From IMG/VR virus record IMGVR_UViG_3300031999_000111, positions 1 through 35,219 of that record: DNA of 35,219 nucleotides. One strand, given 5' to 3'. Positions 915-34,740 of the stretch are shown here, one piece after another (positions within the stretch are counted from its first letter, which is position 1; every line of letters starts with the position of its first letter). The notes under the pieces were generated by a model. The model was not told the origin of the DNA. It saw only the letters and a list, made by a program, of their open reading frames with translations, and ran no database searches. The position numbers were made by a program, and so were the translations under genes. Source of the stretch: a virus.

Positions 915-3880
915 AAAAAAATATCATGATTTTACTCTTGTTTTGCCTAATCATACCCATAGTTTATGCTGCTGAACAGAAATCCTATGTAAATATCAAC
1001 ATGATGAAAAATCAAATCTATAATGCTTCTTGGGTCAATGCCAGTTATTTTAATGGAAGCGGACAGTATTTGTCTAATCTGCCTGTCGGTGTAGGAAATA
1101 CAACATCAGAGATGAGAAATGCAATCAATCAGTCTTTATATTATAATTTTACATCTAATTCTACTACATGGTGGGCAAATGTAAATGATTGGACTTCAGG
1201 ATATTTTATAAAAACAGTCAATAGTCTGGATTTCAACGAGACAAAATTAAACAACACGATAGATGCCAGGCTGACTTCATTCACATTTTACCCGATTACA
1301 AACAGGACAATCTATGGAACGGAGACAGGTGGTAACAATATAGGCAACCTGAGTTTTTATGATACCCAGACTTTCAATGTCACTGAGATAGCTGGAAGCA
1401 ATCCGTTGGAAGTCAGGATTAATTTCACAGGAGTGACGGCTTTCGATAATCTTTTAATAAGGGAAAGATATAACGGTGGTAGCGGACATGAGATAGATAT
1501 CGAATTGTGGAATTATGTGACTGGGGTTTGGGATAATTATTTTGAGATAACAGACCAATCACAACTTACTCAGCTACCAGCAATACCAGTTCCAGATTCT
1601 ACGGAACACATCAGTGGTGGAGTCGTGATGCTAAGGTTCAACCATGTAACCACTCCAGGAAACACACAGCATAAATTCTATATTGATTATGCCCAGCTAA
1701 TAGATGGGACTTCGACATTGACAAACATAGCACATGACAGCCTAAGCGGTAGGGATAACATCTGTATCAACCATCCATGGATTTGTATTTATTATTTGAA
1801 CACTTCACAGTTGGTAGGTTTCAATTACTGGAACTTCACATGGGCAGGGTTCAACAAGACCTACGCAGACACCTTATATATCGGTGTGGGAAATGCGACT
1901 ATAACATCATTAAAGAGTTATATGGATGCCAATGTATCTTCTATTTCGAATAATACTTTATTCTTTAACGGATTACCTACTGGCTATTTCCAGAATGGGA
2001 CCGAGATAGATACTGCAAATACTACTACAGAAATGAGAAATGCAGTAAATCAAAGCCTGTATTATAACCTTACTTCGCAGATGTGTTATTATCTGAATAA
2101 TGCTACTCAAGACACTGCATATCAAAAGACTTACAATTCATCATACTTAACAAATTCATACAACTCTAGTTATGAAGCACAGCTAAATCATAACACCACA
2201 AGTGAAATTAGAACGGCAATAAATCAAACATTATATTATAATTTAACTTCTCAAATGTGCTACTATCTTAACAACGCAACTCAAGATACTTCTTATCAGA
2301 AAACATTTAATACATCCTATGATGCTAAACCAAGTGTAGATACAAACTGCTCTGTAGTTGGTTCCTGTTCCAATGTACAATATGGGACAGAACAGGTAAA
2401 TACGACTACTGAGATGAGAATTGCTATTAATCAAAGTCTTTATTATAACATAACCTGCAATGATTCAAGGAATTATTTTGGAGGATACAATACAGGATTC
2501 TTTCAAAATGGGACTGAAGTCGATACCGTAAATACAACTTCACAAATGAGAAATGCAGTCAATCAATCTTTATATTACAACATGACAGTAAATGACACGA
2601 GGAATTTCAACGGATATAATACTGGCTTTTTCCAAAATGGAACAGAGCAAGTTAATACTACAACTGATATTAGAAATACTATAAACCAGACACTTTATTA
2701 TAACTTAACCTCTCAGATGTGTTATTACCTGAATAACGCTACACAGAATACAGCATATACACAGATGTTTAACTCAAGCTATGAGTACTGGAACAATGCA
2801 AGTCTAGCTACAACAGGCACTTGTTCAGCAGGTCAATATGTAAAACAGACTACAGCAAGTGGTGTCGTTTGTGATACCCCCGCAGCAGGGGGTGGTAGTG
2901 GTGTAAATTATTGGCAGGTGACAGGAAGCTGGATGTCTCCAAATGAGACCGCAGGTGGTCAAAATAGTCTAAACATTACAAACCTGAATGTCACAGGTGC
3001 TTATTATGGGACTGTTTTCAATGCAAGTTATGAAAGAAAACCCGACAATAACATGACATATAATGTAACATATCATGGACAGTTGGGGCATAATACTACT
3101 TCTGAAATACAAACAGCAATCAATCAGACTTTATATTATAATTTCACAAGTCAAATGTGCTACTACTTGAATAATGCTACCCAGGATACTTCTTATACAA
3201 AGACATACAATTCATCTTATCTTACTAGCGTATTCAATTCATCTTATGAATATTGGGGCAATATTACTCTAACTAACACCTACAATACCACCTATCACAC
3301 TTATATGACTTCCAATGTATCAAGCATTTCAAATAGGACATTATATTTTAATGACTTAACTACATGGTACACCTACAATTCAACATATCATAATAACATA
3401 GACACAGCCAATACAACAGCACAGATAAGGACAGCAGTAAACCAGACTCTATATTACAATCTGACAGCACAAATGTGCTATTATTTAAGCAATTCAACGC
3501 AGGACACAGCTTATACAAAAACATATAACTCATCTTATCTCACAAGCGTGTTCAACTCAAGCTATGAATATTGGGGGAACACGACACTGACAAACACATT
3601 CAATGCCACATACAATCTAAACCTTTCCAGCACTTCAAACAATACACTATATCTGAATTATCAGACTTCAGGGTTCTATATGAATAAGACTTATAATGAC
3701 ACATATCACACTTTCAATTATTTAGGAAATACTTCTCTAGTTATTCAAAATGATGTAGATTGGATAAACTCAACCAAAGGAATGAACACGACAGTGACTT
3801 ATACAGCATTGATATGTCTCAACCAAACCTGCCTGTCGAACATAACAAAGAATGATACAGGAGTTTACATATACGGGTGA
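905..3880 (+). CDS. Giant secreted, sequon-rich fibre-like repeat protein
   Basis: 991 residues. Residues 1-22 form a clear signal peptide (basic start, hydrophobic core, VYA cleavage site). The rest is very rich in Asn, Thr, Ser and Tyr, with more than 70 N-x-S/T sequons counted by eye. A unit of the type 'NTTSEMRNAINQSLYYN' occurs eight times, beginning near nt 1097, 2018, 2192, 2399, 2531, 2654, 3092 and 3410. Several copies are followed by 'LTSQMCYYLNNATQDT'. Near residues 640-660 there is a 'C.AGQYV......G.VC' motif and a Gly-rich turn typical of fibre shafts. Repetition and position among fibre genes suggest a host-recognition fibre or surface adhesin. The signal peptide is odd for a tail fibre assembled in the cytoplasm and implies export, perhaps for N-glycosylation. 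Confidence 0.7.
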   Translation: MGIKKNIMILLLFCLIIPIVYAAEQKSYVNINMMKNQIYNASWVNASYFNGSGQYLSNLPVGVGNTTSEMRNAINQSLYYNFTSNSTTWWANVNDWTSGYFIKTVNSLDFNETKLNNTIDARLTSFTFYPITNRTIYGTETGGNNIGNLSFYDTQTFNVTEIAGSNPLEVRINFTGVTAFDNLLIRERYNGGSGHEIDIELWNYVTGVWDNYFEITDQSQLTQLPAIPVPDSTEHISGGVVMLRFNHVTTPGNTQHKFYIDYAQLIDGTSTLTNIAHDSLSGRDNICINHPWICIYYLNTSQLVGFNYWNFTWAGFNKTYADTLYIGVGNATITSLKSYMDANVSSISNNTLFFNGLPTGYFQNGTEIDTANTTTEMRNAVNQSLYYNLTSQMCYYLNNATQDTAYQKTYNSSYLTNSYNSSYEAQLNHNTTSEIRTAINQTLYYNLTSQMCYYLNNATQDTSYQKTFNTSYDAKPSVDTNCSVVGSCSNVQYGTEQVNTTTEMRIAINQSLYYNITCNDSRNYFGGYNTGFFQNGTEVDTVNTTSQMRNAVNQSLYYNMTVNDTRNFNGYNTGFFQNGTEQVNTTTDIRNTINQTLYYNLTSQMCYYLNNATQNTAYTQMFNSSYEYWNNASLATTGTCSAGQYVKQTTASGVVCDTPAAGGGSGVNYWQVTGSWMSPNETAGGQNSLNITNLNVTGAYYGTVFNASYERKPDNNMTYNVTYHGQLGHNTTSEIQTAINQTLYYNFTSQMCYYLNNATQDTSYTKTYNSSYLTSVFNSSYEYWGNITLTNTYNTTYHTYMTSNVSSISNRTLYFNDLTTWYTYNSTYHNNIDTANTTAQIRTAVNQTLYYNLTAQMCYYLSNSTQDTAYTKTYNSSYLTSVFNSSYEYWGNTTLTNTFNATYNLNLSSTSNNTLYLNYQTSGFYMNKTYNDTYHTFNYLGNTSLVIQNDVDWINSTKGMNTTVTYTALICLNQTCLSNITKNDTGVYIYG

Positions 3881-6534: not shown

Positions 6535-7749
6535 ATGCCCGTTCCAAGCAATCTTCCTGAAGGTGGAAAAAAGATATTTGAAAGCGTTATGGAATCCTTA
6601 AAAGGAAAGACTAATAAACGAACAGGCAAACCCTATACTGACGAAGAAAGGGGTAAAATCGCTTGGTCTGCTGTAAAAAGAAAATATTCTAAAAAAGCGG
6701 ATGGATGGGAACTCAAATCAATCCCAGAAGATGATTGGGAAACCTGTTTTAATTCATCTCCATTGGAATTCAAAAGTCAGGATGGAAATTATTATTTCTC
6801 TGGTTATTTAAGCACATTCGACCTGGATTTGGTAAACGACATAGTATCTCCCGATTGCATGAAGGATATGCTAGAGCAGATAAAGATGGGAATGAACGGG
6901 ACAATGAGAAGTTTCAAAGGATCTCCAGACCATGATGTTTACTGGTATGAAGACCCCCAGTTAAAACCCATCTCAAAAATCACAGATGCCATCCTTGATG
7001 CTAAAGGGATATTGATAAAAGGAATGTTCAATTCTGCACACCCTGAATTCAACTGGGAGGAAATACAAAAAGGTTTCTATGATGGTCTTAGCATCGAATA
7101 CAAGGCGACTGATTTTTCTTTCAAGGATGTGGATAATAAAAAAATTAGAGTCTTAAATAAAGTCCAATTAAAAGGTTATGGTCATACGCCAAGACCAGCC
7201 AATCCCTATTCAACGCTTACTGATGTTTTTATAAAAAGTTTGGAACTTGAGGAAATCAAGGAAGAAGAGTCCATTAAAAAGGACATAGAATCTCATCTAC
7301 ATAGAGACATAAAAGAATATCAAATGATGATTTCTGAAGATGAAGACTTCCTCAAGAAATTAAGTCAAGATTGTCCAATTTGCGAAAAAAAATCGGAGGA
7401 TGAAATAATGGCGGACAAAAAGGAAGAGGTGAAATCTGAACCTCAACCTCAGCCTGTTCCTAAAGTTGAAGAGGTTAAGACTATTGAAGTCAAGACTGAA
7501 ATCAAACCAGAAACAAAGGTTGAGGAAAAGAAATCAGAGAACTTAGAAGAGACGATTACAAGGATAGTCAAAGACCAGTTAAAGTCAATGACACCTGAGA
7601 ACAAAGCTGTACCTAATGTTACCTTTGAAAAAAATGAAAAAGGTGAGATTAAGGCATCAGCCGAGAAATTTGAAGAGATTAAATCAAAAGAACCCACAGA
7701 CCTTGTTGGATATGTAACAAAAGGTTTGGGGTTACAAGGAGGTAATTAA
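6535..7749 (+). CDS. ChaB domain-prohead protease-scaffold polyprotein
   Basis: 404 residues in three parts. Residues 1-55 are a ChaB-like domain ('LPEGGKKIFESVM' then 'KIAWSAVKRKYSKK'). Residues about 80-235 match the HK97-type (S78) prohead protease: 'FSGYLSTFDLDLVNDIVSP', a candidate catalytic His in 'GSPDHDVYW', a candidate catalytic Ser in 'FYDGLSIEYKA', then 'LKGYGHTPRPANP'. Residues about 240-404 are charged, Glu/Lys-rich and coiled-coil-like, as expected for a scaffold or delta domain. It lies directly upstream of the capsid gene, the normal order for maturation proteases. The product should scaffold and then cleave the procapsid. Its own promoter at 6504 makes a leaderless start likely. 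Confidence 0.85.
   Translation: MPVPSNLPEGGKKIFESVMESLKGKTNKRTGKPYTDEERGKIAWSAVKRKYSKKADGWELKSIPEDDWETCFNSSPLEFKSQDGNYYFSGYLSTFDLDLVNDIVSPDCMKDMLEQIKMGMNGTMRSFKGSPDHDVYWYEDPQLKPISKITDAILDAKGILIKGMFNSAHPEFNWEEIQKGFYDGLSIEYKATDFSFKDVDNKKIRVLNKVQLKGYGHTPRPANPYSTLTDVFIKSLELEEIKEEESIKKDIESHLHRDIKEYQMMISEDEDFLKKLSQDCPICEKKSEDEIMADKKEEVKSEPQPQPVPKVEEVKTIEVKTEIKPETKVEEKKSENLEETITRIVKDQLKSMTPENKAVPNVTFEKNEKGEIKASAEKFEEIKSKEPTDLVGYVTKGLGLQGGN
7408..7749 (+). CDS. Internal in-frame start for a separate scaffold protein
   Basis: Within the protease-scaffold gene, ATG at 7408 ('MADKKEEVKSEP') is preceded by GGAGGA at 7395-7400 with near-ideal spacing, one of the strongest ribosome sites in the window. 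It would yield a 113-residue Glu/Lys/Pro-rich protein equal to the scaffold part alone. This is the arrangement known from lambda C/Nu3. That it is used here is inferred from the ribosome site. Confidence 0.5.
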   Translation: MADKKEEVKSEPQPQPVPKVEEVKTIEVKTEIKPETKVEEKKSENLEETITRIVKDQLKSMTPENKAVPNVTFEKNEKGEIKASAEKFEEIKSKEPTDLVGYVTKGLGLQGGN

Positions 7750-8856
7750 ATGGCTTTTGGAGAAATGCCCGAAAATTTGATGCCAGAATTAGCCTACCAA
7801 GCGACATTCGGAAATATGCCAAATCATACTATCTATCTGGATAGATTGGCAGGTATATTTGACGAGAGGAAATCAATAGACAGAAGACAAGAGATGAAAG
7901 ACCAGATAAAGTCTTTGACTACTACAAGCAATCTATTTGCCACAGGAATAAACTATACATCCACATCTGGAAGCATTCCAGTATTGGTACCAACAGTTGT
8001 CGATTCTACACTCTATGATGTGACTTTCAGAAGCACACCGTTAGCAAGTGGATTATTGCCAAGGGTTACCAACAACGGATTGTTTGCAGACTATGTTGTA
8101 AGAACAGCACTATCCACAGCAAAGTGGAGAGCAGAAACAGGAGCATTGGCGAGTAACGAATCAACTTATACGAGATACGCCGCACCGATAAAATTCTGTT
8201 ATGCAGTTGGAGAATTGAGTGGACCTTTGATGGTCGCTTCAAAAGTATGGCAGGAAGCACTTAGATACGAGACAGAAGGTCAATATCGTTCCTTGAAGGA
8301 ACTAGAAGAAAATACGATAATCAATGGAAACCCGACAACAGGAACATACGATGGTACTTATGCGGATGCTAACGCATTCAAAGGATTGATAGCAACAATA
8401 GGTTCTACTGTTGGTGCAGCTAAATCAACTTTGAGTGGAACATCTAAAATTAGTCTAGCCAACTTGAGGGATGGTATAAGATTAATCAGAGAAGCTAAAG
8501 GAGAACCAGACTTGATTGTAACCGATTATAAAACATTAGATGACATTAAATCTTTGATACAAGATTTACTTAGATACCCAGCACCGACAGGAAACATAAG
8601 TTTTGGTATTGAAACTATCGTATTTGAAGGAGTTCCAATAATCCCAGACTTGTTCATGCCGACTACTGCAACAGTAAGAGAACTGTTGATTTTGACAGTA
8701 AAGAAACAGGGAAACATACAGCTAAGAGTATTGCAGGATACGACATTCGAGGAATTGGCAAAGACAGCAGATACATACAAGTTCATGATAAAGGAATACT
8801 TTACCATGATACTAATAAAAGAGGCATGGTGCTTTAGGTACTATGCTATAGCTTGA
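7750..8856 (+). CDS. Major capsid protein, HK97 fold
   Basis: 368 residues, starting directly after the protease stop with a GGAGGT site. Typical HK97-family features are the N-terminal charged arm, 'GSIPVLVPTVVDSTLYD', the conserved 'LEENTIINGNPTTGTYDG' region near residues 185-200 followed by 'ANAFKGLIATI', 'EPDLIVTDYKTLDDI', and a C-terminal 'ELAKTADTYKFMIKEYFTMILIKEAW' segment. Length is normal for the family. It forms the icosahedral shell and is the maturation target of the protease encoded upstream. Confidence 0.88.
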   Translation: MAFGEMPENLMPELAYQATFGNMPNHTIYLDRLAGIFDERKSIDRRQEMKDQIKSLTTTSNLFATGINYTSTSGSIPVLVPTVVDSTLYDVTFRSTPLASGLLPRVTNNGLFADYVVRTALSTAKWRAETGALASNESTYTRYAAPIKFCYAVGELSGPLMVASKVWQEALRYETEGQYRSLKELEENTIINGNPTTGTYDGTYADANAFKGLIATIGSTVGAAKSTLSGTSKISLANLRDGIRLIREAKGEPDLIVTDYKTLDDIKSLIQDLLRYPAPTGNISFGIETIVFEGVPIIPDLFMPTTATVRELLILTVKKQGNIQLRVLQDTTFEELAKTADTYKFMIKEYFTMILIKEAWCFRYYAIA

Positions 8857-8867
8857 GGTGAAATGAA

Positions 8868-9128
8868 ATGGCAGCAGATATTGCGGAAACTATAACTGAA
8901 ATAGTGCCTCACATGGGGTTGAAGTTGGTTTACTTTACAGGAACAAAGGTAGCTGCGGATGACTATATGACATTCAGCGACTACACACAGGTTTTATGGG
9001 CAAATGCGATGAGTGGAACAATAGGTTCAGCAGCAGTAGTTGATACCATTACTGCAATAACCACGAATGTAGTTACATTCTCGGTAGGGACTTCAACAAC
9101 TGTAAGAGGCATAGCATTAGTTATTTAG
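8868..9128 (+). CDS. Small structural protein, possible capsid decoration or head protein
   Basis: 86 residues, Ala/Thr/Val-rich beta-type sequence with no signal peptide. GAGGTG at 8855-8860 gives 7-nt spacing to the ATG at 8868; another ATG at 8863 is in a different frame. Position immediately after the capsid gene fits a decoration or head-completion protein. Its C-terminal 'TNVVTFSVGTSTTVRGIALVI' resembles the style of the next gene's product. Function is inferred from position only. Confidence 0.55.
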   Translation: MAADIAETITEIVPHMGLKLVYFTGTKVAADDYMTFSDYTQVLWANAMSGTIGSAAVVDTITAITTNVVTFSVGTSTTVRGIALVI

Positions 9129-9182: not shown

Positions 9183-9428
9183 ATGACATTTACAGCTACA
9201 GCAGGTTCGCAAAAAGTTATAACTGGAGTATTTGGTATGGAAGTAGTCAGAGGGCAAGTTACCGCAGCAACTACAGGTACTTATGTTTCAAAATTTGGAA
9301 CAATATTAGCAGTAGTTATTAGCAATGAAACAACAAACAATACAATAAAAGCATCATGGTCTAGCAGCACTGTAACAATAACTGCCACACAGAATGATTA
9401 TGTGGACTTCGTTATATTCGGATATTAG
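9183..9428 (+). CDS. Small structural protein, candidate decoration protein
   Basis: 81 residues with an excellent GGAGGT site 8 nt ahead of the ATG. The sequence is Thr/Val/Ala-rich and of beta character ('VVRGQVTAATTGTYVSKFGT', 'SSSTVTITATQNDYVDFVIFGY'), like many small head decoration proteins. The strong ribosome site and location behind the capsid gene suggest an abundant product. No family is firmly recognised. Confidence 0.55.
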   Translation: MTFTATAGSQKVITGVFGMEVVRGQVTAATTGTYVSKFGTILAVVISNETTNNTIKASWSSSTVTITATQNDYVDFVIFGY

Positions 9429-25871: not shown

Positions 25872-26153
25872 ATGCCATTTGAATATTTGCCTATAATCTA
25901 TTCGGTTATAGGTGGTTTTGGTTGGGCTATGTTAGCCTTCTTCAGGGAATATCAGAAGACAACGACTAGCTTTGAATGGAAGAAATTACTTAAGACACTC
26001 ATAATCGGTGCAGGAGTAGGATTCATCGCACAATGGTATGGACTCACTTTCGATGCAGTTCAGTCAATGACCATCTTCGGTTCAATAACAGCAGTGGCAG
26101 ACAAAATAGTAAATATAGTCTTTGGTTTTTTAAGTCCAAAGAAAAAGAAATAG
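25872..26153 (+). CDS. Small multi-span membrane protein, holin candidate
   Basis: 93 residues with about three hydrophobic segments: residues 6-24 ('LPIIYSVIGGFGWAMLAFF'), 41-62 ('LKTLIIGAGVGFIAQWYGL') and 67-87 ('MTIFGSITAVADKIVNIVF'), and a basic tail 'SPKKKK'. Size, topology and basic C-terminus fit a class I holin. It has its own promoter and is the last late gene. No endolysin is visible nearby, so the call rests on architecture. Confidence 0.55.
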   Translation: MPFEYLPIIYSVIGGFGWAMLAFFREYQKTTTSFEWKKLLKTLIIGAGVGFIAQWYGLTFDAVQSMTIFGSITAVADKIVNIVFGFLSPKKKK

Positions 26154-26154
26154 G

Positions 26155-26183
26155 CTTTTCTTTATTTTAATTTTTTTAATTCT
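26155..26183 (+). terminator. T-rich late terminator
   Basis: Directly after the TAG of the holin candidate comes a T-dominated stretch with several T runs (up to 7) and no hairpin, the usual archaeal termination signal. It ends the plus-strand late region just before the pentamer array. Confidence 0.5.
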
Positions 26184-26185
26184 AG

Positions 26186-26388
26186 TGTATATCATATGAT
26201 GTCATTGCATGTAATTTAATGGAATTCTATGGAATATTATAAAGTCGCATCTGATTCTATAGTATGTGATAATATCAAATTAAATGTAATGTTGTGAAAT
26301 TATAGTATTAAGTGGCATGACATGGGATGGTATATTGTCGAATGAAATATTATATGGTTTCATTACATTTTATTTTATTATATAAAAT
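26186..26388. repeat. 5-bp periodic NNN-(A/G)-T array, main copy
   Basis: Reading from 26186, 23 consecutive pentamers end in AT (21) or GT (2), up to 26300. After a 3-nt slip (TAT at 26301-26303), 17 more from 26304 to 26388 end in AT (14) or GT (3). The first three bases of each pentamer are varied (for example TGT, ATC, ATG, GTC, TGC, GTA). The element is non-coding. It lies between the late T-rich terminator and the early-operon terminator hairpin. It is not a simple microsatellite, a CRISPR or a coding repeat. Partial array: see 27226-27270. Function unknown; a protein-binding ladder is the leading idea. Confidence 0.8.
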
Positions 26389-26391
26389 AAA

Positions 26392-26409
26392 AGGGGAATT
26401 AACTCCCCT
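26392..26409. terminator. Bidirectional hairpin terminator at the convergent boundary
   Basis: AGGGGA at 26392-26397 pairs with TCCCCT at 26404-26409 around a 6-nt loop. On the plus strand CTATTTTT follows; on the minus strand TTTTATTTTAT follows. The stop of the 26399 gene lies inside the hairpin, so it probably terminates the early minus-strand operon and blocks read-through from the late side. Confidence 0.6.
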
Positions 26410-27214
26410 CTATTTTTACCAATTTAATTATCCCACCGAATACTTTTGAATTTGCCCCTAAACCATCAAGCCCTGCTTCCTCTATCATTTTGAACCAATC
26501 AACTATTTGCTGTTTGGTTTTTAGCTTAGAACCCCTGAATGGAAATCTCATCATCAATTTAAATTTGCATCCCTTTGGTATCATCTCATAGTCGCACATC
26601 CCTTCTTTTACTTTCAACTGCTTCCATTCTGTTTTAGGCTGTTCCAAGAATGTTCCCTTGCTTATAGCTAAATGATATGTTATGGATTGTGGCAAGTCTA
26701 TTAATGCAGCATTATTTCTCATCAACCCATACATCCAGTTTGGTAGGATGACTAATTTTCCATCTATTTTCGGAAAGACTAATTTTCTTTCTTCTCCATT
26801 AGACCATCCACCCAATATTGGCGTTATTGTTTCAAATGTCATGTCGAATGTATGGTAGTCCCCCCATACCCCCCTTGGTTCGATTATTCTTGGTTCTTTC
26901 TTTATTTTTTCATTTAATGATTCCAATGCCAGTTTCATCTCTATTTCAGTGCTTGTGCTGTTGCAAATAGCCATTATACCAGAACTGTACCAAGCAGGTA
27001 TATCTGCCATTTTCCAGAGCAGTTCACCATTATGATAATTCCCTGCTATGACTTTTCCTGCTTTATGCTTTCTCAGATAACGGATTAATTTATCTTTTTT
27101 TATTTCCATCTTCATCTGTTTGTTCAGATAATTCAAGACCTCATCCGTAGAAGCCTCTTTAAGTTCTCTTATAGCCGAGAACACAGCTATCTCTTCCTTT
27201 GGATTATATTCCAT
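26399..27214 (-). CDS. Winged-helix-like / RAMP-like protein bracketed by pentamer arrays
   Basis: 271 residues with an AGGAGG site. Residues 1-70 look like a winged-helix domain ('IAVFSAIRELKEASTDEVLNYLNKQ', 'IRYLRKHKAGKVI'). Residues about 115-271 have features of a RAMP/ferredoxin-like fold: 'FDMTFETITPILGGW', 'KIDGKLVILPNWMYGLMRNNA', 'KFKLMMRFPFRG', and a C-terminal Gly-rich 'GLDGLGANSKVFGGIIKLVKIE' resembling the RAMP loop. Similar phage proteins exist but their function is unclear. It is the last gene of the early operon, with its own possible promoter. Pentamer arrays lie just before its ribosome site and just after its stop, so it may bind them. The fold assignment is tentative. Confidence 0.5.
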   Translation of the reverse strand: MEYNPKEEIAVFSAIRELKEASTDEVLNYLNKQMKMEIKKDKLIRYLRKHKAGKVIAGNYHNGELLWKMADIPAWYSSGIMAICNSTSTEIEMKLALESLNEKIKKEPRIIEPRGVWGDYHTFDMTFETITPILGGWSNGEERKLVFPKIDGKLVILPNWMYGLMRNNAALIDLPQSITYHLAISKGTFLEQPKTEWKQLKVKEGMCDYEMIPKGCKFKLMMRFPFRGSKLKTKQQIVDWFKMIEEAGLDGLGANSKVFGGIIKLVKIEGS

Positions 27215-27225
27215 CTTCTCTTCCT

Positions 27226-27270
27226 CCTATTTTATTTCATGCAATAGTATGCAATAATATCTGATTACAT
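27226..27270. repeat. 5-bp periodic NNNAT array, short copy upstream of the 26399 gene
   Basis: Nine consecutive pentamers (CCTAT TTTAT TTCAT GCAAT, then AGTAT GCAAT AATAT, then CTGAT TACAT) all end in AT; the phase then slips by one base (ACGAAT). It lies about 12-56 nt upstream of the start of the 26399 gene and abuts its ribosome site. An 18-bp word at 27244-27261 matches 26259-26276 of the main array at 16 positions, in the same pentamer phase. Confidence 0.7.
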
Positions 27271-27294
27271 ACGAATAAAATTTTTATTAACATT

Positions 27295-27304
27295 ATTTTA
27301 AAAT
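27295..27304 (-). promoter_or_regulatory. Possible TATA box for the 26399 gene
   Basis: On the minus strand TTTTAAAATA is followed by ATGTTAAT. The predicted transcription start would be near 27270, at the right edge of the short pentamer array, placing that array in the 5' leader. It overlaps the stop of the preceding gene. Confidence 0.35.
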
Positions 27305-33636: not shown

Positions 33637-34740
33637 TCAAATAATCGTGCATTTCTGCACTAATTGTTTTTTCAGATTAAAGAAGTGTCTTCTTGAGTAT
33701 CCGCTTCTTTTAACAAATTCGTTTATTTGTTCGTTCACATCCTTGAATTGCATTTCTTTTATTACCTCTAAAAATATTGCCTTATCTTCTTCTGTTTTTA
33801 ATTCTAAGTTAGCTATGTTTTTCCAACCATTGTTCATATTGGTCAAATAAATCTCATTTATTTTAAAAAGTGTCCTGAAGTTTAAATTACTTGCTTCAGA
33901 AGAATTATCCTTTATGAAATCCAATACTTCTAATGGTATTCTTTGCAATTTTCCTATTTCATAGATAAGTTTAACAGTATCGGCATAATTGAAATTCAGT
34001 TCATAATAGAAACATCTGCTTTTTAATGTCTCAAGATGTTCTGGTATATGATTAGTTAATAAGATTATCTTGGATTTAAACTCAAATTGGCTTGGAACTT
34101 TAAGTTTTTCTGATGTTGTAAGCCAATTCACTATTCGTTTATTTGTGGGATTCCAAAGACAAGCCATTAATATATTACATTTTATTTCTTCCGACCACAA
34201 ATTACTGATATCATCAAGTATTATTATCTTATTATCGCTATACTTATAAAAGAACTCATAGAGTTCCATCGGTGAACAGTGAGTATTAAGCAATACATAA
34301 TCCTTTTCATATCTTAATCCATTGTCGTTTAAGCGTTTAATGACATTAAAAGATTTTCCTTTTCCCGTGCTACCACAAATTATTAAGCCGAATATACTCT
34401 TACTGTTAATCAAAGTATCTACATACTCATTAAGATATAAAAAATATTCGTCTATCTTGTTGTTGGTCGATTTAGAAATCTCTTTTATAGATTTGTTTAA
34501 ATCCTTTCGTGTCTTATCTTCCAATCGTTTTAATTGCTCGGATTCAAACTCTTTTTCTTCTACTTTAATCTTGGATTTCTCTAATTCCTTTAATTTTCTC
34601 CAATCCTCGCCTAAAATATGAGAATAATTTTCATCTTTTTCTAAAGTATTATCCCAAATAGCATGAATATCCAAGTCTTTAATATCGTTTTTAGATAGTA
34701 AATTATTCAATTCCCCCTCTATTATGTTATTCATTTTCAT
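33637..34740 (-). CDS. P-loop ATPase with C-terminal HTH-like segment
   Basis: 367 residues. A coiled-coil N-terminus (about 45-95) precedes an AAA-type core: Walker A 'CGSTGKGKS' near residue 123, Walker B 'KIIILDDIS' near 172, sensor-like 'IILLTNH' near 230, and 'LKSRCFYYELNF' in the place of a late arginine. The C-terminus 'INEFVKRSGYSRRHFFNLKKQL' looks like a helix-turn-helix. The plan resembles DnaC/IstB-type helicase loaders or viral initiator ATPases. No helicase or primase is visible in the window. It is the last gene of its operon and overlaps the terminator hairpin of the opposing unit. Confidence 0.65.
   Translation of the reverse strand: MKMNNIIEGELNNLLSKNDIKDLDIHAIWDNTLEKDENYSHILGEDWRKLKELEKSKIKVEEKEFESEQLKRLEDKTRKDLNKSIKEISKSTNNKIDEYFLYLNEYVDTLINSKSIFGLIICGSTGKGKSFNVIKRLNDNGLRYEKDYVLLNTHCSPMELYEFFYKYSDNKIIILDDISNLWSEEIKCNILMACLWNPTNKRIVNWLTTSEKLKVPSQFEFKSKIILLTNHIPEHLETLKSRCFYYELNFNYADTVKLIYEIGKLQRIPLEVLDFIKDNSSEASNLNFRTLFKINEIYLTNMNNGWKNIANLELKTEEDKAIFLEVIKEMQFKDVNEQINEFVKRSGYSRRHFFNLKKQLVQKCTII
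33647..33672 (+). terminator. Hairpin plus T run ending the 32889-33622 unit
   Basis: GTGCA (33647-33651), TTTC loop, TGCAC (33656-33660), then TAATTGTTTTTT. It lies within the 3' end of the opposing ATPase gene. A second arm TAGTGCA at 33620-33626 can pair with TGCACTA at 33656-33662, giving an alternative fold. Confidence 0.45.

Follow-up and report, generated by a model that had tools for sequence, protein, structure and literature searches.

Results

Pentameric arrays on both sides of one viral gene

The DNA analysed here (the window) is an IMG/VR virus record of 35,219 bases, in which a gene for a protein of 271 amino acids (P0001) lies between arrays of five-base repeats. In gene sense these repeats read NAYNN. 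The features of the locus are as follows.

27227–27271, minus strand: upstream array of nine NAYNN units in gene sense (9/9 units match), which touches the ribosome-binding site; candidate guide RNA (vrRNA-like)
27223–27228, minus strand: ribosome-binding site AGGAGG of the P0001 gene, from the sequence
26399–27214, minus strand: P0001 gene, 271 amino acids, predicted winged helix plus RAMP (Vipr-like) domain, from models and PDB comparison
26942–27214, minus strand: predicted winged-helix domain, residues 1–91, from an AlphaFold model and its match to STIV F93 (2co5)
26402–26902, minus strand: predicted RAMP domain, residues 105–271, from a model and its match to Csm3
26432–26464, minus strand: glycine-rich loop GLGANSKVFGG, residues 251–261, aligned with the G-loop of Vipr relatives in alignment A4
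26390–26411, minus strand: terminator-like hairpin at the gene end, ahead of the downstream arrays, from a comparison of sites with shuffles
26300–26389, minus strand: downstream array, block A, 18 NAYNN units (18/18 match)
26187–26301, minus strand: downstream array, block B, 23 NAYNN units (23/23 match), phase shifted relative to block A

An earlier note on this DNA had described nine consecutive AT-ending pentamers (given as 27226–27270) immediately 5' of the ribosome-binding site, and these were confirmed at 27229–27270, touching the AGGAGG motif. The arrays also bracket one gene, as had been claimed, with nine units upstream and 18 plus 23 units downstream. In the whole window, runs of at least six units at 5-bp spacing are formed by AT only, at four places (26189–26240, 11 units; 26249–26290, 9 units; 26362–26388, 6 units; 27229–27270, 9 units), and by none of the other 15 dinucleotides, and the longest such AT run outside the two array stretches is 4. 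When the whole window was shuffled 200 times with its dinucleotides preserved, the longest AT run was 4 to 7, while local shuffling (n = 5000 each) gave a run of nine in no shuffle of 27215–27297 and in one shuffle of 26160–26398, where the real value is 11. The periodic arrays are confirmed as a real feature. The word at 27244–27261, which had been said to match the main array (26259–26276) at 16 of 18 positions, does so, and its significance is lost on shuffling: with AT fixed and the NNN letters of the second array shuffled, 43 of 500 shuffles still reached at least 16/18. Since AT-keeping shuffles reach this value so often, the match points to a scaffold in common and not to further shared sequence.

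Only about 12 bases separate the upstream array from the gene. Terminator-like sites in the region numbered three against a shuffle mean of 0.5, and promoter-like sites were at shuffle level; because the terminator-like hairpin lies between the gene and the downstream arrays, these arrays may have a start of their own. The folding of the main array RNA is not unusual (z −0.66), no 3' tail common to the arrays of the window was recognised by eye, and an Rfam search gave no match. As to a CRISPR array of near-identical repeats and spacers, the tandem repeat search of the window returned short low-copy repeats only, and the pentamer arrays of the window have no repeat-spacer structure.

Predicted winged-helix and RAMP domains of P0001

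P0001 had no usable family match in Pfam, PHROGs or PADLOC and no match to the PDB by sequence. In an AlphaFold run with two sequences, P0001 and the homologue at locus L027 described below, the RAMP part was not resolved, and the winged helix gave STIV F93 (2co5) as its best PDB match (Z 10.1, 87 residues, rmsd 2.7). Residues 105–271 were then aligned with ten proteins by MAFFT and modelled, which yielded pLDDT 84.1 and pTM 0.81, where the input comprised nine vipr-like and two P0001-type proteins, so that the vipr relatives dominate and may steer the fold. The best PDB match of this model was CRISPR Csm3 (5yjd; Z 12.5, 143 residues, rmsd 3.1), and Foldseek gave 8do6_E with an E value of 2.7e-8. 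Of the best 50 matches of the structural PDB comparison, 48 have CRISPR, Csm, Cmr, Cas7-11, gRAMP or Craspase in their titles and two (7x8a and 7x7r) are titled only as a ‘bacterial protein’, and the best 50 Foldseek matches all name CRISPR-type RAMP complexes. In addition, the glycines G147 and G149 are invariant in all 11 rows of alignment A4. By these models, P0001 joins a winged helix to a RAMP domain in one chain.

The tie between P0001 and the vipr family was not reached by sequence comparison alone, since hhalign of P0001 against the vipr alignment found no homology, its best match lying in the wrong region, and since the P0001 alignment A1 against alignment A2 gave only E 0.061. No cas family was found by Pfam and PHROGs among the ten window proteins scanned, and no cas gene was recognised near P0001.

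Homologues of P0001 and similar arrays at other loci

Searches with the single P0001 sequence found no homologue in IMG/VR, and none was found in GTDB genomes or among phage records; searching IMG/VR with alignment A1 returned the L027 protein only, which is the one close homologue found (38% identity over 265 amino acids). Its gene is flanked by pentameric arrays on both sides, so that the check suggested in the earlier note for homologues of the 26399 protein gave a positive answer: an upstream array at 7141–7205 (13/13 units) ends 26 bases before the gene, and three array blocks follow it. The two viruses have nine open frames in common, P0001 included (31–49% identity), most of them in the stretch taken for structural genes, and judging from this comparison they look like distant relatives in both of which the system has been kept. 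The window frames gave no match at E 0.001 to the fetched parts of L117, L012, L007 and L043.

Among more distant relatives, gene-sense pentameric arrays of the NRYNN family were found near the gene in all eight loci, which were fetched with the L007/L012/L043 alignment, three of them being those same contigs and originally found via their arrays. The earlier idea that gene and arrays form one cassette is supported by these eight loci and by the flanking of L027 on both sides.

A search of IMG/VR for ATNNN repeated ten times in a row gave at least 119 stretches, most of those listed having few distinct units, like microsatellites. Only 12 of the 119 listed are diverse arrays (at least seven distinct triplets of nine). 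Six of the 12 have a vipr-like gene in the record (L079, L043, L117, L012, L027 and L007, on five contigs), and the other six (L019, L115, L116, L058, L003 and L034) have no vipr match in the whole record. Near the remaining 107 listed stretches no vipr-like gene was found below E 0.001 with P0001, the SUSP1 Vipr, two relatives and a seven-sequence profile as queries. P0001 matched L057 weakly (E 0.0089), and a protein of L012 had weak Csm5 matches in PADLOC (E 0.0014). The array of L058 is largely self-complementary and that of L116 lies inside an open frame, while in L012 and L117 the arrays begin within ten bases after the gene.

Several of these loci have particularities of their own. The diverse ATNNN arrays of L019 (3281–3397) and L115 (129–190) lie in large virus records with no recognisable vipr, and they are either chance occurrences, orphan arrays, or neighbours of a vipr too distant to find. 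In L117 (9228–9400), TTTTAACTTTTTATTAATGGAGGA occurs after each of two consecutive arrays, and its second copy forms the leader of the vipr-like gene; this element, which includes the ribosome-binding site, is a candidate guide tail. The 115-kb virus record L007 carries two vipr-like genes, at 1254–1817 (minus strand) and 8328–8909 (plus strand), and arrays at 417–481, 1844–1903 and 9285–9349, one gene having RAU/NN arrays and the other being followed by a GGY/NN array.

Strand polarity and the repeat scaffold

Because AT is palindromic, the strand of the arrays is not obvious. Read in gene sense, [N]A[C/U]NN is present in 50 of 50 units (9/9, 18/18 and 23/23), whereas on the opposite strand the same pattern has misses in both downstream blocks. 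When the arrays of the window, L027, L117, L012, L007, L043 and L079 are pooled and read in gene sense, the 245 units contain 227 AT, 12 AC, no GT and 6 others. Deviations to AC and never to GT make the constraint look single-stranded, that is, one on RNA. No NRYNN run scoring 11 or more was found outside the arrays in the window or in the L027 record.

The three remaining positions of the pentamer are nearly free in the window (1.92, 1.84 and 1.91 bits). This holds for the base that precedes A-U as well, which is G in 27 of 27 units of L043 and L079. The scaffold differs by locus: it is GGY in SUSP1 and at the second gene of L007, GGC/GAC in L123, GAU in L043, RAU in L012 and L007, and NAU in the window, L027 and L117, and in the more distant Vipr relatives it is RRY/NN or NRY/NN, grading over the distant loci from GGC/GAC through GRY and GAU to RAU. 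Although GGY itself is absent from the window, NAY connects to it via the GRY, GAU and RAU loci, and the NAU of the window looks like one end of a scaffold series that starts with GGY.

Discussion

Relation to VIPR and other known systems

The closest published counterpart is VIPR (Viral Interference Programmable Repeat), known for example from Escherichia phage SUSP1 (PMC13142463, bioRxiv 2026.04.26.720920). There, a viral RAMP protein with an RRM core and a glycine-rich loop acts with RNA guides that silence competing phages; the guides consist of 9–16 YNNGG (GGY/NN) repeats up- and downstream of the gene, have an invariable structured 3' tail, overlap in some types, and target double-stranded DNA, which is read with one skipped base, and an accessory vap protein comes from a separate gene (PMC13142463). 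Our array search recovered the SUSP1 arrays, which served as a positive control. Moreover, the SUSP1 Vipr alone, searched by phmmer against 2666 ORFs of 120 sources, matched proteins of L007 (two genes), L043 and L117 with E values of 1.6e-11 to 3e-4, one of the L007 matches being the second gene, beside the GGY array, and the L043 protein searched against phage records matched phiSUSP1 (E 0.002). Since the SUSP1 Vipr matches proteins beside AT arrays, these AT-array systems are related to the published Vipr.

The window resembles VIPR in having a single virus-borne (here predicted) RAMP protein, tandem arrays of pentanucleotides, partly constant and partly hypervariable, on both sides of the gene and in its sense, and a putative DNA-interacting accessory function, here the predicted winged helix. 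It differs in that the constant part is A-(U/C) with a free preceding base instead of GGY, that there are blocks of 18 and 23 units besides one of 9 while the published range is 9–16, and that the putative accessory domain is an N-terminal fusion and not the product of a separate vap gene. The ORF after vipr encodes 163–210 amino acids in L123–L126 and 167 in L007; between the P0001 winged helix and the vap proteins or these ORFs no homology was found. The GAU or RAU loci L012, L007 and L043 share with the window the period and polarity of the repeats, and their array lies a few bases from a RAMP gene matching the SUSP1 Vipr or its relatives, but they have G or A before A-U and an unfused Vipr. 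The Csm3 and Cas7 RAMP subunits of type III CRISPR are like P0001 in predicted fold (Z 12.5) and glycine-rich loop, while the window has neither a CRISPR array nor a recognised cas gene near P0001. TIGR-Tas, likewise borne by viruses, uses RNA guides and a repeat array to target DNA, whereas Tas, at least in part of its published description (PMC12045711), was found from the guide-RNA domain of Cas9 and not among RAMPs.

All seven VIPR types are reported to have GGY/NN ‘or a related consensus (fig. S17)’ (PMC13142463). No description of an A-U-type array was found in the literature searched, the supplement of the VIPR preprint lying outside its reach, and given the wording just quoted the A-U consensus may already be in that supplement.

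Possible explanations of the arrays

The earlier note had suggested that the gene product binds the array DNA and controls its own expression. Such an operator, in which the winged helix of P0001 would bind 5-bp periodic double-stranded DNA and repress its own gene, would fit the position of the upstream array in the leader of the gene and the predicted winged helix itself. However, an AT operator would be strand-symmetric, while the deviations are 12 AC and no GT; the long array follows the gene, with a terminator-like hairpin in between; and the other domain of P0001 is predicted to be a RAMP, the related systems being known as guide-RNA systems. We therefore consider it quite improbable, and this part of the note gives way to guide RNA: transcription of the arrays into guides is favoured by the strand asymmetry, the RAMP fold and the likeness to VIPR. 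That the gene product recognises the arrays is still probably right.

The arrays could also encode a RAMP-bound RNA whose role is not DNA targeting but, for instance, mRNA autoregulation or the targeting of RNA. The upstream array does lie in the 5' leader of the mRNA, and the best fold match is CRISPR Csm3, a subunit of RNA-targeting complexes. This is nevertheless unlikely, because many different units on both sides of the gene are more readily explained as guides than as one regulatory site, and because the published VIPR targets double-stranded DNA (PMC13142463). A decayed microsatellite or a functionless structural DNA element might be suspected from the simple repeats that make up most of the ATNNN arrays listed from IMG/VR, but the units of the window are nearly all different with A-Y kept in 50 of 50, decay would affect fixed and free positions equally, and such arrays are associated with vipr-like genes. 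The pattern of variation already contradicts this reading, to which we give next to no credence.

The preferred reading, with a probability of about 0.83, is that a tailed virus here carries an RNA-guided system of the VIPR type, made up of the gene and its two arrays and characterised by an A-U scaffold and a winged helix–Vipr fusion. The kind of system is thus best read as one already known, and what would be new here is A-U instead of GGY and the fusion of the DNA-binding domain to Vipr. By analogy with VIPR we infer transcription, RNA binding, target pairing and the biological role as follows. The arrays would give rise to gene-sense transcripts made up of pentameric repeats. Along these RNAs the RAMP domain of P0001 would polymerise, each subunit covering 5 nt and gripping the constant A-(U/C) step, with the variable bases left exposed. 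These bases might then pair, with gaps, with double-stranded DNA from a rival virus or satellite and silence it, while the fused winged helix would stand in for the vap protein that other VIPR loci encode separately. The blocks of 18 and 23 units, compared with the nine repeats upstream, could possibly hold overlapping guides.

How many bases of each repeat would be read is a further question. It is conceivable, if rather doubtful, that the NAY code fixes nothing but the A-pyrimidine step and that the three other bases all pair, giving one full triplet per RAMP step with no skip. If so, a gapped guide would read a contiguous target at three bases per subunit, and together with the fused winged helix this would make a one-protein system.

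VIPR, reported in 2026, is RNA-guided and may precede CRISPR (PMC13142463). If our reading is true, an A-U variant with an extra free base per repeat and a built-in winged helix would mean that the code itself evolves, and the window would supply a one-gene example of VIPR, in which the number of bases read per repeat and the role of the accessory domain become testable.

Searches for targets

The three guides of the window, together with 15 from other loci, were compared with the window and the fetched loci under five pairing rules, and nothing stood out by inspection. Under the one-skip rule with 8-unit seeds, block A had 22 matches in IMG/VR (best, 10 consecutive units in L144), and one-skip seeds of block B had 2 and 1 matches and those of the upstream array 8; in GTDB genomes, one 9-unit seed of block B had 7 matches, the best of 11 units in a Myxococcales MAG (L173). 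For the extensions of 10 and 11 units about 0.1 would be expected by chance (an estimate), which we judged not significant, so no target is claimed, and none was found for the window arrays in the window, the fetched loci or the IMG/VR and GTDB seed scans. In 19 of the 22 block A matches the longest open frame is antisense and the skipped base falls at the codon wobble position; this pattern was set aside, as the matches represent about six protein families and several near-identical records.

Neighbouring genes

The final gene ahead of the arrays, which lies on the other strand (25872–26153, plus strand), encodes a small protein with a sub-threshold match to the phage holin family PF16083 (E 0.00018). 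Further away, the product of 33637–34740 (minus strand) resembles nrdC.10-type proteins of T4-like phages (phrog_1250) and has matches in 1100 phage records, with 24.8–29.4% identity among the matches listed.
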